Assembly: GCF_000376265.1 (NCBI RefSeq)
Contig: NZ_AQWU01000072.1
Coordinates: 1-64,000 of the forward strand
Length of the DNA: 64,000 bases
Direction of reading: 5' to 3'
DNA from: Thermus igniterrae ATCC 700962
GTDB taxonomy: Bacteria > Deinococcota > Deinococci > Deinococcales > Thermaceae
The position numbers and the translations under genes were made by a program. A model generated the notes under the pieces. That model was given only the letters and a program-made list of their open reading frames with translations, made no database searches and had not been told where the DNA came from. Positions 14,620-20,406 of the stretch are shown here, one piece after another; positions within the stretch are counted from its first letter, which is position 1, and each line of letters starts with the position of its first letter.

Positions 14620-16308
14620 TTACCAGAGGCGCAGCCCAGGCACCAGGTTCACGTTGCCGAAGAGCTGGACCAGGGTGGGCCCATAGGTGAGGGCCACCAG
14701 GATCACCGCCACCACGAACCAGAAGCCCACCCGGTCCAGGGCCTGGACCAGCCTGCGGTCCTCAGGGCCGGAGAGCACCTCGGCGAAGGGCACCGGGGCC
14801 TCGGCCAGCTCGGGCCTGCGCTCCCGCCCCAGGAGGACGCCGAAGAGGCCGTAGATGAAGAGGAGAAGGGCCACGAGGAGGATGATCCCGCCCAGGATGT
14901 TGAAGACCATGGGGACGGCGCTGTGGGCGTAGGCGTCGGGCACCTGGGCGATGTAGGCCCGCCGGGGCACGTTGAGAAGCCCCTGCCAGTGGAGGCCAAT
15001 GGCCATGACCAGCATGCCGATGAACCACAGCCAGACCACCGCCAGGCCAACCCGCCTTTGGGCATCGGAGATGGGCTTGCCCGTGAGGTTGGGGATGAGC
15101 CACCACAGGGAGCCCATGGCCGTGAGGGTAACCAGGCTGGCCACCTGCAAGTGGAAGTGCCCGGCGATCCAGATGGTATTGTGGACGACGTAGTCCAGGG
15201 TGAAGCTGGCGTTCACCATGCCGCCGGCACCGCCAGGGATAAAGCCGATGAGGCCAAGCACCGGGGCCACGAAGGCTGGGTTGCCCCAGGGGAGGACCTT
15301 GATCCAGCCAAAGAGGCCCTTACCCCCCCGCATCCGGCCGGCGAACTCCAGGCTGGCGGCGATGGTGAAGGCGGTCATGAGGCTGGGCACCGCCACGAAC
15401 ATGGTGAGGATGGAGTGGATCATCTTCCAGGTGGGGTCAATCCCAGGGTCGGCGAACTGGTGGTGGAACCCCACGGGGGTGGAGAAGAGGAGGAAGAGGA
15501 GGAAGACGATGCGGGCGATGGGGTCGGAGACCAGCTTGCCCCCCGCCTGCTTGGGCAGGATGGTGTAGATGATGACGTAAGCGGGCAGGAGCCAGAAGTA
15601 CACGATGGGGTGGCCCGTCCACCAGAAGAGGGTGCGGGTGATGAGGGGGTCCACCCCCTTGACGAGGCCGAAGGACCAGGGGAGGAGGAAGAGGACGGCC
15701 TCGAGGACCAGCCCGATGGAGGCGATGAACCACATCAGCCAGTACACCACGGCCATGTAGGTGACCAGGGGGGTCACCTTGCCGGGGTTCTGGGCCTTCC
15801 AGCGCCGCCAGAGGTCCAGCACGATGTAGATGCTCACCCAGGTGGAGAGGACGAAGATGCTGGCCCCCAGGTAGAAGGCCCAGTGGCCCTGGAGGGGCGG
15901 GTAGAAGGTGTAGAGGACGGTGGCGTTGTTGGAAAGCAGGGGCAGGGCCGCCATCACCAGGCCGATGAAGGCCATCCACCAGGAGAGCCACATGAGGCCC
16001 ATGTTGGGCCTGAGGTTCAGCTCCCGGGCCGGCAGGTAGACCATGATGGCCTGGGCGAAGAGCTGGGTGAAGACGATGGCGTTCAGGACCCCGTGCAGGG
16101 TCAGGCCCTGGTAGTAGGACTGGACGAAGGGGAGAAGGCGCTTAAGGAGGGGATAGGCGTCCACGTTCCCGTAGTTCAGGGCCTGGAAGGGACCGAAGAG
16201 GCTCCCCACGATGACGGCGATGAAGCCCAGGACCAGGAAGTACAGGGTGGCCTTCTTCTCCGGATGGGCCTCGTACACGCGGCTTGCGTCGCTGGTGCGT
16301 ACTGCCAT
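14620..16308 (-). CDS. cbaA: ba3-type cytochrome c oxidase subunit I
   Basis: The 562-residue haem-copper oxidase subunit has the same length as T. thermophilus CbaA and a nearly identical start (VYEAHPEKKATLYFLVLGF). Thirteen membrane helices are expected. 'LTLHGVLNAIVF' carries a low-spin haem ligand. 'WWTGHPIVYFWLLPAY' contains the CuB His and the cross-linked Tyr (H-P-I-V-Y), and 'GFHHQFADPG' the paired CuB His. 'VVHNTIWIAGHFHLQVASL' carries the haem ligands near residue 380. This B-family enzyme reduces O2 with high affinity and is typically used at low oxygen. It starts 3 bp after cbaB and ends at a strong terminator. Confidence 0.96.
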   Translation of the reverse strand: MAVRTSDASRVYEAHPEKKATLYFLVLGFIAVIVGSLFGPFQALNYGNVDAYPLLKRLLPFVQSYYQGLTLHGVLNAIVFTQLFAQAIMVYLPARELNLRPNMGLMWLSWWMAFIGLVMAALPLLSNNATVLYTFYPPLQGHWAFYLGASIFVLSTWVSIYIVLDLWRRWKAQNPGKVTPLVTYMAVVYWLMWFIASIGLVLEAVLFLLPWSFGLVKGVDPLITRTLFWWTGHPIVYFWLLPAYVIIYTILPKQAGGKLVSDPIARIVFLLFLLFSTPVGFHHQFADPGIDPTWKMIHSILTMFVAVPSLMTAFTIAASLEFAGRMRGGKGLFGWIKVLPWGNPAFVAPVLGLIGFIPGGAGGMVNASFTLDYVVHNTIWIAGHFHLQVASLVTLTAMGSLWWLIPNLTGKPISDAQRRVGLAVVWLWFIGMLVMAIGLHWQGLLNVPRRAYIAQVPDAYAHSAVPMVFNILGGIILLVALLLFIYGLFGVLLGRERRPELAEAPVPFAEVLSGPEDRRLVQALDRVGFWFVVAVILVALTYGPTLVQLFGNVNLVPGLRLW

Positions 16309-16311
16309 GGC

Positions 16312-16818
16312 TCACTCCTTCACCACGATCTTGCCGAACATGTTCTGGTGGCCGAGGCCGCAGTACTGGTTGCAGATGATGCGGTACTCGCCTGCCTTCT
16401 TGAAGGTGTAGCGGACGGTGGTGACGTCCCCGGGTAGGACCTCCACGTTGATGTTGGTGCCCTCCACGTGGAAGCCGTGGATCACGTCCGGGCTGGTGAT
16501 CTTGAAGATGATCTCGGCCCCTTTGGGCACCTCAATGGGGTTGGGCTGGTAGCCGAAGGCGAAGGCCAGCACGTGGACCGTGTACTGGTTGGGCCCGGTC
16601 TGCACCACCGCCTGGGCCGCGTCGGCCCAGGGGCCTTCCGTGCGCACCTTGGTGGGGTCAAGGCGCTCCAGCTGACCCGCGGGGATCACTCCGGCGGTGT
16701 GGGTGGCCAGGGTGTAGGCGATGAGGGCGATGAAGACCACCACCATGACCAGGGAAAAGGCCAGCCATCCCTTCTCGTACGCCAGTATCGCCTTGTGGGC
16801 CTTGTGCTCGTCCACCAT
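16312..16818 (-). CDS. cbaB: ba3-type cytochrome c oxidase subunit II (CuA)
   Basis: This 168-residue protein has one N-terminal membrane helix (about 18-38) and a periplasmic cupredoxin domain. The CuA ligands are visible: His in 'DVIHGFHVEGTNINVEV' and 'CNQYCGLGHQNMFG' with both Cys, the His and the Met. It takes electrons from cytochrome c552 and passes them to haem b in CbaA. It lies between cbaD (3-bp gap) and cbaA (3-bp gap) in a tight operon. Confidence 0.96.
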   Translation of the reverse strand: MVDEHKAHKAILAYEKGWLAFSLVMVVVFIALIAYTLATHTAGVIPAGQLERLDPTKVRTEGPWADAAQAVVQTGPNQYTVHVLAFAFGYQPNPIEVPKGAEIIFKITSPDVIHGFHVEGTNINVEVLPGDVTTVRYTFKKAGEYRIICNQYCGLGHQNMFGKIVVKE

Positions 16819-16821
16819 GGC

Positions 16822-16926
16822 CTACCCCCTAGCGAAGAAGAGCGCGTATACCCCCAGCCAGAAGATCAGGATGGTGAGGGTAAGAATCACTATCACACCC
16901 ATAGCGCCGACCGGTTTTTCCTCCAT
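16822..16926 (-). CDS. cbaD: ba3-type oxidase small subunit IIa
   Basis: The 34-codon gene encodes MEEKPVGAMGVIVILTLTIL followed by IFWLGVYALFFARG, a single membrane helix. Length and both ends match subunit IIa of the T. thermophilus ba3 oxidase. It is a structural subunit packed against subunits I and II and is easily missed because of its size. A good ribosome site (GGAGGAAGGGT) precedes the ATG. It is the first gene of the cbaD-cbaB-cbaA operon. Confidence 0.93.
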   Translation of the reverse strand: MEEKPVGAMGVIVILTLTILIFWLGVYALFFARG

Positions 16927-16939
16927 ACCCTTCCTCCCT

Positions 16940-16988
16940 TACGGCAGGTTGCCGTATACGGGGGACATGTTAGCCAAAGGCGATTTGG
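16940..16988 (-). promoter_or_regulatory. Inverted repeats in the cba promoter/leader
   Basis: Two inverted repeats stand out upstream of cbaD: TACGGCA-N3-TGCCGTA (16940-16956) and CCAAA-N5-TTTGG (16974-16988). A possible promoter, TTCACC-N18-TAACAT, would place the second repeat in the spacer and the first at or just after the transcription start. They could be operators or, for the first, a leader hairpin. The regulator is unknown. Confidence 0.5.
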
Positions 16989-17051
16989 AAGGTGAAGTAC
17001 ATTTGTCCCTGCGGTGTGGCGCAGGGTGCCAAGTACCGGTAGGAGGTATAA

Positions 17052-17077
17052 GGGGGCCGGGGTATGCCCCGGCCCCC
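17052..17077 (-). terminator. Terminator-like hairpin after mglA
   Basis: An 11-bp GC-only stem (GGGGGCCGGGG / CCCCGGCCCCC) with a TATG loop lies 16 bp past the mglA stop. On the reverse strand only TT follows, so the T-run is poor. It probably separates mglBA from the cba promoter. Confidence 0.6.
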
Positions 17078-17092
17078 CCTCAGCCCCTGCCC

Positions 17093-17680
<588 letters not shown>

Positions 17681-17681
17681 G

Positions 17682-18173
17682 CTAGTTGCCGAAGAGCTCG
17701 TCCAGGAGGGCCTTGGCTTCCTCGCGGTACTGGGTGTCCAGGGAGAGCTTGGGCGGGTTGGCCAAGGCCTCCTCCGCCAGCCGGGCCAGGGCCTCGGCCG
17801 CCCGCTTGCCGTAGAGCTTCACCTTGCCCAGAGGGGCGTTTTCGTCAAAGACCAAAAGGAGCAGGGCGTGCTCCCCCGCCTCGTCCACATAGAGGCCCAT
17901 GCGTTCGCCCTGGTGCACCAGCTCCTGGAAGCGCACCTCCCCCAGGAGCTTGGCCAGGGCCTGGGTGGCGGCGGCGTTGCCCGCCACCAAGGTGGCCAAG
18001 GAGTCCAGGGGCGGGGGCTTGGGCGCCCAGAGGGCTTCCTTGTGGGCTAGAACGAAGCCTTTGCGGTCAATGAGGAGGCCGTAGCGGGCCCCGGTCTCCC
18101 GGAGGGTCTCCTCCAGGACCTCCATGGCCCGCTCGTAGAGGGCCCCGTACAGGACCAAAGAGGGTTCCACCAT
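17682..18173 (-). CDS. mglB: MglB, roadblock/LC7 GTPase-activating protein
   Basis: This 163-residue roadblock/LC7 protein has the core '[26 protein letters not shown]' (about 22-48), '[20 protein letters not shown]' and '[37 protein letters not shown]'. MglB dimers bind one MglA and stimulate GTP hydrolysis, so cytoplasmic polarity control is the expected role. The ATG at 18173 is only 17 bp from the divergent M20 peptidase start, with a -10 box 9 nt upstream. mglA follows directly. Confidence 0.92.
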
Positions 18174-18190
18174 AGTATGCTCAGTCTACC
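18174..18190. promoter_or_regulatory. 17-bp divergent promoter region, mglB and M20 peptidase
   Basis: Two start codons face away from each other with 17 bp between. Forward TATGCT (18176-18181) is 9 nt from ATG 18191; reverse TAGACT (18188-18183) is 9 nt from ATG 18173. Both genes would give leaderless mRNA, and both -35 regions must lie inside the opposite gene. Confidence 0.55.
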
Positions 18191-19516
18191 ATGAGCGCCT
18201 TTTTACAAGAGGCCAGGGCCCTTTTGGCCGAGCTGGTGGCCATTCCCACGGTGAGCGCCGAGGGGAGGGCTCTTCGGGAGGGGGCGGAAAGGGTGGCCGG
18301 GCTTCTGGAGGCCCTGGGGTTGCGGGCAGAGCTCCAGGAGGGCTATGGGCCGCCGGTGGTCTACGCCGAGGGGGGGGAAGGGGAGAAGACGCTCCTTTTT
18401 TACAACCACTACGATGTCCAGCCTCCCGATCCCCTGGAGCTCTGGGAGAGCGACCCCTTTGCCCTAGCCGAGCGGGAGGGGGCCTGGTACGGCCGCGGCA
18501 CCCACGACGACAAGGGGGAGCTGGTGGCCCGCCTGGTGGCCCTCCGGCTCTTCCGGGAGAAGCACGGGTTTCTGCCCCGGGTGAAGTTCGTGGTGGAGGG
18601 GGAGGAGGAGGTGGGAAGCCCCCACCTGGCGGACTACGTGCGGGACCATCGGGACCTTTTGCGGGCCGAGGCCATCCTCTGGGAGGCGGGAGGCGTGGAC
18701 GCCCAGGGGAGGCCCTACCTCTACGCGGGGCTCAAGGGGATCGTGGCCCTGGAGCTCAGGGTGCGCACCGCCGCCTTTGATCTCCACTCCTCCTATGGGG
18801 CGGTGGTGGAAAACCCCATCTACCGCCTGGCCAGGGCGGTGGCCAGCCTGCGGGACGAGGAGGGGCGGGTCCTCATCCCCGGGTTCTACGAGCGGGTGCG
18901 GCCCCTCACCCCCAAGGAGGTGGAGGTGCTCTCGGAAATCCCCGATGAGTCGGAGAGCCTGAAGTCGCTTTTTGGCGTGCGGGACTTCCTGGGGGGTGCC
19001 AGGAACCTGGAGTTCAACCAGCGCCTTTACGCCGAGCCCTGCGTGAACCTCAACGGCTTCCATGCCGGCTACGGGGGCCCGGGTTCCAAGACGGTTTTGC
19101 CAGCCGAGGCCTTCGCCAAGCTGGACTTCCGCCTGGTCCCTGACCAGGACCCGGAGGAGGTTCCCGAGCTCCTTCGCCGGCACCTCGAGGCCCAAGGCTT
19201 CCACGACGTGGAGGTGGTGGTCCTGGAGAAGGGGGAGCACCCCGCCCGCTCCGACCTGGCCCATCCCTTCGTGGGCCTAGCCAGGCGGGCCCTGGAGGAG
19301 GCCTTTGGCGCCAGGGCCGTCCTCTACCCCAACATGGCGGGCTCGGGGCCCATGTACCCCTTCCTCCACCACCTGAAGGCCCCGGCGGTGGGCCTGGGGG
19401 TGGGGTACCCTGGGAGCCGGGTCCACAGCCCCAACGAGCACATCCGCATCGCCGACTTTGAGCGGGGCACCCGGGCCCTCCTGCGGCTTTTGGAGCTTTA
19501 CTTCCTGGGCGGCTAG
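18191..19516 (+). CDS. M20-family metallopeptidase (dipeptidase-like)
   Basis: The 441-residue protein has the two-zinc peptidase layout: 'LLFYNHYDVQPPDPLELWESDPF' near residue 73 (His and catalytic Asp), 'YGRGTHDDKGELVARLVAL' near 100 (bridging Asp), 'FVVEGEEEVGSPHL' near 135 (general-base Glu and ligand), and 'VHSPNEHIRIADFERGTRALL' at the end (ligand His). The lid/dimerisation domain is inserted in the middle. It matches M20 dipeptidase/acylase enzymes that trim peptides in the cytoplasm; the exact substrate is unknown. The ATG is leaderless. Confidence 0.83.
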   Translation: MSAFLQEARALLAELVAIPTVSAEGRALREGAERVAGLLEALGLRAELQEGYGPPVVYAEGGEGEKTLLFYNHYDVQPPDPLELWESDPFALAEREGAWYGRGTHDDKGELVARLVALRLFREKHGFLPRVKFVVEGEEEVGSPHLADYVRDHRDLLRAEAILWEAGGVDAQGRPYLYAGLKGIVALELRVRTAAFDLHSSYGAVVENPIYRLARAVASLRDEEGRVLIPGFYERVRPLTPKEVEVLSEIPDESESLKSLFGVRDFLGGARNLEFNQRLYAEPCVNLNGFHAGYGGPGSKTVLPAEAFAKLDFRLVPDQDPEEVPELLRRHLEAQGFHDVEVVVLEKGEHPARSDLAHPFVGLARRALEEAFGARAVLYPNMAGSGPMYPFLHHLKAPAVGLGVGYPGSRVHSPNEHIRIADFERGTRALLRLLELYFLGG

Positions 19517-19536
19517 GGGTGCTATCCTTGGGCGGT

Positions 19537-20406
19537 ATGCGCCTGGTCTTTGGCGAGCGCGATACCCCTTACGAGGCGGCCCGGGTGGTGGTCCTGCCCG
19601 TGCCCTACGACCTCTCCCTCTCCTTCCTCCCCGGGGCGCGGCGGGGGCCGGAGGCCCTCCTTCTGGCCAGCCGGGAGCTGGAGCCCTTCCTGCTGGAGCT
19701 GGGCGTGGCCCCGGAGGAGGTGGGGATCCACGCGGCCGAGCCCGTGCCCTGGGTGGCGGGGAGCGCCGAGGAGAGCCACCGCCTCATCCGGGAGGCGGCT
19801 TTGGCCCACCTCCGGGCGGGCAAGTTCCTGGTGAGCCTGGGGGGGGACCATTCCATCGTCCACCCCCTGGTGCAGGCCCACCGGGAAGCCCTGGGGGACT
19901 TTTCCATCCTGCACATAGACGCCCACGCCGACCTCTACCCCGAGTGGCAGGGCTCGGTCTACTCCCACGCCTCCCCCTTCTTCCGCCTGCTCCAAGAGGG
20001 TTTTCCCCTGGTCCAGGTGGGCCTCAGGGCCATGGACCGGGACTCCCTCCACCTGGCGAAGGAGAAGGGCGTGGCCTTCTTCCCTGCCCACCGCCTCCAC
20101 CGGGAAGGCCTTCCCCTGGAGGAGATTCTGGCCGCTTTGGGCAAGCGGGTCTACCTCAGCTTTGACTTTGACGCCCTGGACCCCTCGGTGATGCCCAGCG
20201 TGGGGACCCCTCTTCCTGGAGGGCTCACCTACCGCCAGGCGGTGGAGCTCCTCGAGGCCCTCTTCCGGGAAAAGGAGGTGGTGGGCATGGACTTCGTGGA
20301 GCTCTCCCCCAACGGGCAGTTCCACGCGGAGATGACCGCGGCCCAGCTGGTCTACCACGCCATCGGGCTCAAGGGGCTACAGGCGGGCTGGCTCAGGCCC
20401 GAGTAG
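19537..20406 (+). CDS. speB: Agmatinase-family ureohydrolase, probably aminopropylagmatinase
   Basis: The 289-residue arginase-fold enzyme shows all Mn-binding motifs: 'SLGGDHSIVHPLV', 'HIDAHADLYPEWQGSVYSHAS', and 'YLSFDFDALDPSVMPSVGTP'. In T. thermophilus the SpeB homologue acts on N1-aminopropylagmatine to give spermidine, the route to its long polyamines. By similarity the same job is likely here, with agmatine as the other possible substrate. ATG 19537 is chosen because TATCCT (19522-19527) lies 9 nt upstream; an earlier in-frame start at 19519 would overlap that box. No polyamine gene neighbours are present. Confidence 0.82.
   Translation: MRLVFGERDTPYEAARVVVLPVPYDLSLSFLPGARRGPEALLLASRELEPFLLELGVAPEEVGIHAAEPVPWVAGSAEESHRLIREAALAHLRAGKFLVSLGGDHSIVHPLVQAHREALGDFSILHIDAHADLYPEWQGSVYSHASPFFRLLQEGFPLVQVGLRAMDRDSLHLAKEKGVAFFPAHRLHREGLPLEEILAALGKRVYLSFDFDALDPSVMPSVGTPLPGGLTYRQAVELLEALFREKEVVGMDFVELSPNGQFHAEMTAAQLVYHAIGLKGLQAGWLRPE

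Follow-up and report, generated by a model that had tools for sequence, protein, structure and literature searches.

The promoter of the ba3 oxidase operon of Thermus igniterrae ATCC 700962 carries a conserved box, GGGACAAATGTAC, that lies at a fixed distance from the -10 element and recurs before respiratory genes. It is found on the minus strand at 17009-16997 of the window (the whole stretch of DNA that was analysed, 64,000 nucleotides of contig NZ_AQWU01000072.1); it is the best-conserved feature of the region, and was absent from the preliminary description of this DNA, which had pointed to two palindromes. Taken as GGGACAAATGTACT (16996-17009, minus strand), the box is an imperfect form of the palindrome RGGACA-NN-TGTCCY, is centred at about -42.5 and is a proposed operator. 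Our best explanation of the region as a whole, which we hold with reasonable confidence, is that the box would be the operator of a respiratory regulator, that one of the two palindromes (palindrome 1) would form a hairpin in the leader and that the other (palindrome 2) would be a product of chance. The earlier interpretation is partly supported: it was right in kind but relied on the wrong elements.

In the mechanism that we propose, the -10 of ba3 (TAACAT) is preceded by GGGACAAATGTAC, with its centre near -42.5 and beside a poor -35. A dimeric regulator would bind the box and adjust the transcription of respiratory genes to oxygen or redox conditions; it would most likely be an activator in contact with RNA polymerase. 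A regulator had indeed been suggested for this promoter. Specific regulation is well supported, but it had been tied to the palindromes, and GGGACAAATGTAC takes their place; the suggested oxygen or redox signal is plausible in view of the types of gene in front of which the box recurs.

On the minus strand, the locus consists of a gene at 17680-17093, a GC-rich hairpin at 17077-17052, a short intergenic region and the genes cbaD (subunit IIa of the ba3 oxidase, 34 aa, 16822-16926, with 16926 as the first base of the start codon), cbaB (subunit II, 16312-16818, with relatives in other genomes) and cbaA (subunit I, 14620-16308). Among the named genomes listed, the closest match of subunit II is that of Thermus scotoductus DSM 8553 (95%). 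We take ba3 to be a low-oxygen enzyme in Thermus. The Shine-Dalgarno sequence of cbaD, AGGGAGG, lies at 16933-16939. The hairpin at 17052-17077, seen in the inverted-repeat listing and absent from the output of the terminator scan, is likely the terminator of the gene upstream. A cbaDBA operon with its own promoter is the best explanation of this layout. The gene order agrees with that given, in the parts of PMC7662524 drawn on here, for TTHA1133 (IIa), TTHA1134 (II) and TTHA1135 (I), which are followed by genes for a hypothetical protein and an MFS transporter. Directly upstream of the ba3 promoter (minus strand, 17093-18173), two genes look MglA/MglB-like by eye, that at 17093-17680, apparently a small GTPase, and one of 163 aa at 17682-18173.

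For conservation, we compared the regions upstream of cbaD in L030-L056, 27 loci of which one is from the own genome, 25 are from other members of the genus and one is from genus g5; L057, whose contig begins inside the box, was added as a 28th leader. The pattern GGGACAAAYGTAC is found in 27 of the 27 loci, with GGGACAAACGTAC in L049. Within the core, 12 of 13 columns are invariant (26 of 27 rows), while none of the preceding columns (-30 to -2) exceeds 0.78 bits. The -10 element (16967-16972, minus strand), kept as GCTAnCAT, sits 37 bases after the box start in 26 of 27 loci; L052, with 27 bases, is one helical turn shorter. A second copy of the box lies upstream in 11 of the 27 loci, at exactly 32 bp in eight of them and at 31, 31 and 35 bp in the others, and seven of these 11 copies are perfect palindromes such as GGGACAAATGTCCC.

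The box extends beyond Thermus. In three other genera of the family (G001-G022), which we take to be Meiothermus-type, RGGAC-N4-GTMCY was found in 18 of the 20 ba3 upstream regions compared, from 20 of the 22 genomes; it is missing from L200 (G012) and L207 (G006). The two genomes outside this set are G004, whose ba3 upstream region (L059) holds TGGGACACTTGTACTT, and G021. TTAGACT matched as the -10 in 15 of the 20 regions. Two ba3 operons of family f4 (G066 and G070), which came from regions fetched for holding the box, present GGGACAAATGTCCC with a TANNNT at offset 27.

We then consider the box elsewhere in the genome. The exact pattern GGGACWNWTGTMCY occurs at nine places, and eight of them are intergenic when read by eye, with the reservations that L064 and L068 are intergenic only if the gene starts downstream of the start of the longest open reading frame and that L061 shares two bases with a stop codon; the ninth, at a protoglobin gene, is possibly coding sequence. 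On the assumption that non-coding DNA makes up 8% of the genome, the binomial chance of at least eight of nine intergenic sites is 1e-8. Besides ba3, the exact sites precede genes for a multihaem cytochrome c (Cytochrome_C7), a radical-SAM protein adjoining a cytochrome c, and a branched-chain amino-acid transporter. Others stand before a TetR gene with a paa-type gene behind it, a CtaA-UbiA fusion upstream of caa3-type oxidase genes, a gene resembling the sulfite-oxidase-type one of G027 and a litR/crtB pair. Perfect forms are found before the multihaem cytochrome c gene, sorA, paaR, litR/crtB and the f4 ba3 operons, and one half is degenerate in Thermus ba3; related forms stand before haem-A synthase, Sco/PCuAC, bc-type, sulfite-oxidase-type and dnrS-like genes. 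The names ACIII, bc complex, NirJ-like, PaaR, LitR, SoxW, SorA, narC and dnrS/dnrT are our reading of sequences, Pfam matches and neighbourhoods.

Sites with one mismatch were also inspected: 15 were read as L069-L083, one (C70:18639) was read as L183, and seven more lie outside the reading. Five of the 15 (L072, L073, L079, L080 and L081) are by genes for NosD and PCuAC-SCO1 (two copies), a bc-type cytochrome c, a thioredoxin in a sox-like cluster and CcdA/ccmA; L079 and L080 are intergenic only if nosD starts downstream of the longest open reading frame. Seven sites (L069, L070, L071, L074, L075, L078 and L082) lie in genes, L076 is at a gene end, L077 is in an apparent repeat array and L083 is between genes of no evident respiratory kind. 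The further site on contig C70, AGGACAGATGTCCC, separates a dnrS-dnrT-like pair from a divergent narC-like cytochrome c gene (L183:3157-6500). The dnrS-like gene encodes a 599-aa GAF-BTAD protein and is followed by one for a CRP protein, an assignment made by the description given in PMC6282519. The same layout is seen in L184 (G047), and a similar protein with a box is found in L232 and L234, of another family.

Most of the target genes of the own genome are boxed again in G030 and G027, from which 20 of 27 regions were fetched (11 of 14 and nine of 13, respectively; those skipped were ba3 or had GC-rich or other non-AT centres). One of the 20 (L213) lies inside a gene and another (L228) is without a named family; Pfam names were obtained for 16 of the 20 proteins scanned. 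Among 20 box-holding regions of families f2 and f4, at least six (L229, L237, L238, L245, L246 and L248) are without a respiratory gene.

In all 27 Thermus genomes GGGACNNNTGTMCY is more frequent than its reversed control (213+208 against 42+42), while GGGACNNNNGTCCC exceeds its reversed control in only four of the 27 (in the own genome, eight against 22). Counts of an exact pattern were dropped as proof of enrichment after the latter control. Because enrichment depends on the pattern chosen, the case for the box rests on position, orthologous conservation and kind of gene. On these grounds we read the box as the putative operator of a lineage-wide respiratory regulator.

Two of the places deserve separate mention. 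In L065, L214 and L220, from three genomes, a GGGACAAATGTACC box falls on the 5' end of a protoglobin gene (PF11563 in L188), and the site is set apart because it may be coding (RYICP). The litR/CRP-type (TTHB099-like) operon of the own genome itself carries a box, GGGACTTTTGTCCC, which it shares with a divergent phytoene-synthase-like gene (L068:1-2500; also L211). This sharing links carotenoid and light control to the respiratory box.

The distance from box to -10 bears on the sign of regulation. Among 49 promoter orientations, which exclude the ba3 operons of Thermus and the Meiothermus-type genera, include the two of f4 and, comprising orthologues, are not independent, 22 of 38 occurrences of TANNNT at offsets 14-50 fall at offsets 25-30. 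None is found at offsets 25-30 at sorA, the nirJ-like gene, soxW or the narC side; ctaA has none within offsets 14-50, and by eye it shows CAGAAT or CAAAAT at about offset 38. Since most TANNNT lie at offsets 25-30, while the -10 of ba3 lies at 37 and the hexamer seen at ctaA at about 38, Thermus ba3, and perhaps ctaA, would use a register one turn further out. A box that starts 25-30 bases before a -10 overlaps the -35 position, so it could bind a repressor that blocks RNA polymerase. Many target promoters have this arrangement, and ba3 is under negative control of some kind, as the strain deficient in TTHB099 indicates (PMC7662524). However, the box of Thermus ba3 is one turn further out and beside a poor -35, that of ctaA is alike by eye, and an activator is what one would expect there. 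Repression is a serious but doubtful alternative, and activation remains the reading that we prefer for ba3.

Which protein might read the box was also considered. The own genome encodes four LuxR-type proteins, one of which, P0004, is an orphan response regulator of the NarL/LuxR type (L084:1054-1707). An orthologue is found in 48 of 50 genomes of the family, in all 14 genomes taken from other families, picked mainly because they hold many exact sites, and, with at least 65% identity, in 11 of 14 additional genomes. The motif SEKTVRN is identical in the 22 orthologues read, and its K, R and N align with K179, K182 and N183 of DosR, which PMC5999986 names as core DNA-binding residues while reporting that the K182R variant still binds. 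Other observations point the opposite way. P0004 is missing from G008 (99% complete) and G018 (84%), whose ba3 promoters nonetheless carry the box; nine genomes without exact GGGACNNNNGTCCC possess it; its nearest structural relatives by sequence are VraR/LiaR, ahead of DevR; and at least two paralogues (L265 and L270) also have KTVRN. No kinase gene was recognised beside P0004 in the loci read. Comparison of box counts with the presence of P0004 was not decisive, as mostly high-count genomes had been chosen and the exact pattern misses the AGGACA form. With evidence both ways, P0004 is tentatively put forward as the leading candidate for the regulator of the box.

A bolder proposal can be formulated, and we regard it as speculative and, as a whole, unlikely: that the order comprising Thermus, the Meiothermus-type genera and family f4 would possess an ancestral, unreported global respiratory regulon, run by the orphan DosR-like P0004 reading RGGACA-NN-TGTCCY at two helical registers (-32.5 and -42.5) and coordinating oxidases, haem-A synthesis, copper delivery, the bc complex, sulfur oxidation and the denitrification master switch dnrS. 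A different pair, found at L087:131-1689 near a molybdopterin oxidoreductase gene, joins a LuxR-type response regulator to a sensor kinase that has several cysteines near its N-terminus; by eye, it resembles an oxygen or redox system of the NreBC type.

Two other families were weighed as readers of the box in place of a NarL-type protein. One is the CRP/FNR family, in the form of either a 207-aa protein of the L130 type or the LitR-linked TTHB099 type. A position at -42.5 suits class II activation by members of this family, and each type has a likely orthologue in seven of eight genomes of the family, the own genome included, when matches given a locus are considered. In addition, ba3 is strongly raised in the TTHB099-deficient strain: the array reported in PMC7662524 gives log2 changes of +1.3, +2.9 and +4.3 for TTHA1133, TTHA1134 and TTHA1135, which for the subunit I gene amounts to a rise of about 19-fold, and complex I genes are up as well. 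These data indicate that the ba3 operon is regulated at the transcript level, though they do not show thereby which protein is responsible. Against a direct role, the same study, in the parts drawn on here, did not find the TTHB099 motif upstream of the affected operons, and MEME on upstream regions yielded neither that motif nor another. Furthermore, the measured motifs of two Thermus members are unlike GGGACA-NN-TGTCCC: RGGACA-NN-TGTCCY, judged by eye, fits neither of the consensuses published for TTHA1359 and TTHB099 (AWTGTRA-N6-TYACAWT or TGT(A/g)NBSYRSVN(T/c)ACA). As far as the sources drawn on here go, the motifs published for TTHA1359, TTHB099, NsrR-Th and TTHA1953 all differ from the box. 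We consider a CRP/FNR reader unlikely.

The other is the Rrf2 family, exemplified by a three-cysteine regulator adjoining a cysteine desulfurase (L296). All 12 genomes searched gave family matches; the MWVSTKAQYGLRALVEIG type can be seen in eight of 11 loci read, including that of G008, which is without the NarL-type candidate; three cysteines are present in six of six proteins read; and Thermus NsrR binds CTTGACCNNGGTCATGG, whose GAC-N4-GTC geometry is similar (PMC5748679). However, the neighbourhood indicates iron-sulfur or sulfur supply, and in the loci read no RGGAC-type site lies ahead of the gene, with only loose in-gene matches in three of them. L305 (G012) encodes a different type, and the simple gene caller did not bring out the gene in L298 or L304. 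A reader of this family is rather unlikely, and P0004 remains the candidate that we place first. As an observation apart, the three-cysteine Rrf2 regulator beside the cysteine desulfurase gene (L296:1450-1896), of a type visible across the order, is an IscR-like candidate for this lineage.

We now return to the two palindromes. Both are present as described, TACGGCA-GGT-TGCCGTA at 16940-16956 and CCAAA-GGCGA-TTTGG at 16974-16988; their location within 50 bp of cbaD was slightly off, as the second lies 48-62 bases from the first base of the start codon (16926). As bare repeats, both are unremarkable and not above chance: inverted repeats with 7-base arms and spacers of 3-8 bases number 98 in the window, compared with 62-96 in 10 Markov shuffles, and those with 5-base arms and N5 number 147.

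Palindrome 1 differs from the other in being conserved. It lies on the minus strand just upstream of the Shine-Dalgarno sequence and just after the likely transcription start, a G at 16959 (minus strand) that is inferred from the -10 and present at the same distance past it in 27 of 28 leaders (in L052, one base earlier). A location inside the transcript would follow from the conserved -10, and a probable 5'-UTR hairpin would be UACGGCA-ACC-UGCCGUA. A possible stem of at least five Watson-Crick pairs is kept in 26 of 28 Thermus-group leaders, own leader included, against a mean of 1.7 and a maximum of six leaders in 300 mononucleotide shuffles; the exceptions are L052 (four pairs) and L056 (five pairs only with G-U). 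The loop varies between 3 and 6 bases. When 24 distinct leaders were aligned (L032, L039, L040 and L046 are identical to included ones from the inferred start), 94.4% of the cells were paired, and versions slid by 1-3 columns reached at most 54.9%. Two of the six pairs are altered on both sides, in three cells. Support from covariation is modest because the left arm is nearly invariant, and the number of pair types was equalled by 121 of 500 shuffles.

Could palindrome 1 itself be the DNA operator of an oxygen- or redox-responsive regulator at the transcription start, as first suggested? Its left half, GTATACGGC, hardly varies among the Thermus-group leaders, and the repeat directly follows the likely start site. 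However, the proposed search of the genome for more sites brought no site family: there is one exact copy in 2.2 Mb, and with up to two mismatches four forward matches are found, compared with three for the reversed-pattern control. As a regulon operator, the palindrome was rejected on these counts. The distance between the arms varies, two pairs change on both sides, and Meiothermus-type ba3 promoters keep the GGGAC box without the palindrome 1 sequence. The repeat is conserved, but an operator at this place is improbable, and because the loop is variable, some changes are paired and no second genome copy exists, palindrome 1 is probably a 5'-UTR RNA hairpin. Close to the 5' end of the mRNA and just before the ribosome site, it would most likely slow decay from that end.

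Two related ideas were discarded. Sequestration of the Shine-Dalgarno sequence by a C-run before the hairpin appears in some folds only, and the C-run is unconserved and probably lies before the start site. In Meiothermus-type leaders, stems of at least five pairs between a C-run and a G-run are found in eight of 15; the C-run comes directly after the -10 and so is probably upstream of the start, and these stems were not counted as a matching hairpin.

Palindrome 2, CCAAA-N5-TTTGG, lies in the promoter spacer and is found in one of 27 Thermus-group ba3 promoters, that of the own locus, a lack of conservation for which it is judged to be a chance repeat; for this repeat, the outcome is the one that the preliminary description had itself set as refuting. 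The promoter elements described around it are present, with TTCACC (minus strand, 16996-16991), an 18-base spacer and TAACAT (16972-16967). Its -10 is borne out by conservation, while the -35-like element is weak: TTCACC is exact in 15 of 27 loci, and a scan of 16000-19800 found no sigma-70-type site. The notion that the conserved block, which abuts the -35 position, is core promoter sequence only, without a specific regulator, is very improbable given that the same palindrome is found at two registers, has second copies 31-35 bp upstream and is common to many respiratory genes. The stretch immediately upstream of the GGGAC box is poorly conserved among relatives; a third perfect inverted repeat, CCCTGCG-N6-CGCAGGG (17007-17026), absent from the preliminary description, overlaps that edge of the box.

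The ba3 oxidase is a much-studied enzyme, and the setting of its level is a matter for which our literature search located no published account of promoter control in Thermus. According to PMC6282519, T. thermophilus has no gene for an FNR-like sensor. None of six spelled forms of the box was found in the open-licence PubMed Central literature searched, and none of the papers listed deals with a box of this kind in Thermus. A single box common to oxidases, haem and copper assembly factors, bc-type genes, sulfur oxidation and dnrS-like genes would be a testable handle on respiratory control across the lineage.

Several known systems invite comparison. Stem-loops at the 5' end, of the ompA type, stabilise bacterial mRNAs. 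Palindrome 1 is alike in being a short stem-loop near the inferred 5' end and before a Shine-Dalgarno sequence; it differs in that, among the leaders read, it is found only in the ba3 leaders of Thermus and genus g5.

Nitrate control by DnrS/DnrT shows a resemblance in that a box lies between dnrS-like and narC-like genes, both in L183 of the own genome and in L184 of G047. However, according to the parts of PMC6282519 drawn on here, the aerobic strain HB27 has no Dnr proteins, which are part of mobile regions for nitrate respiration, whereas the ba3 box is present in 27 of 27 Thermus-group promoters. In G049, whose ba3 promoter (L053) has the box, there is no DnrT-like protein among four strong CRP matches. 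The NsrR-Th operator, CTTGACCNNGGTCATGG, is likewise an NN-centred palindrome with GAC..GTC halves in Thermus respiratory promoters (PMC5748679). It differs in its outer and inner bases (TTGACC versus GGGACA), and, as the title of that paper states, the genes of its regulators belong to mobile clusters.

The mycobacterial DosR/DevR system, whose box is given as TTSGGGACTWWAGTCCCSAA in PMC2275270, is also alike. Perfect boxes of the Thermus lineage share with it the 14-bp core GGGAC-N4-GTCCC; multiple copies are found in both (here, in 11 of 27 ba3 promoters), as is the respiratory context; and a NarL-type regulator with K-x-x-R-N in its reading helix, P0004, is present. Differences are seen in the inner bases, which here are often A..T instead of T..A, and in one half of the palindrome, which is degenerate (GTACT) in Thermus ba3 and ctaA. 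The targets differ too, as those described here include oxidases together with their assembly factors.
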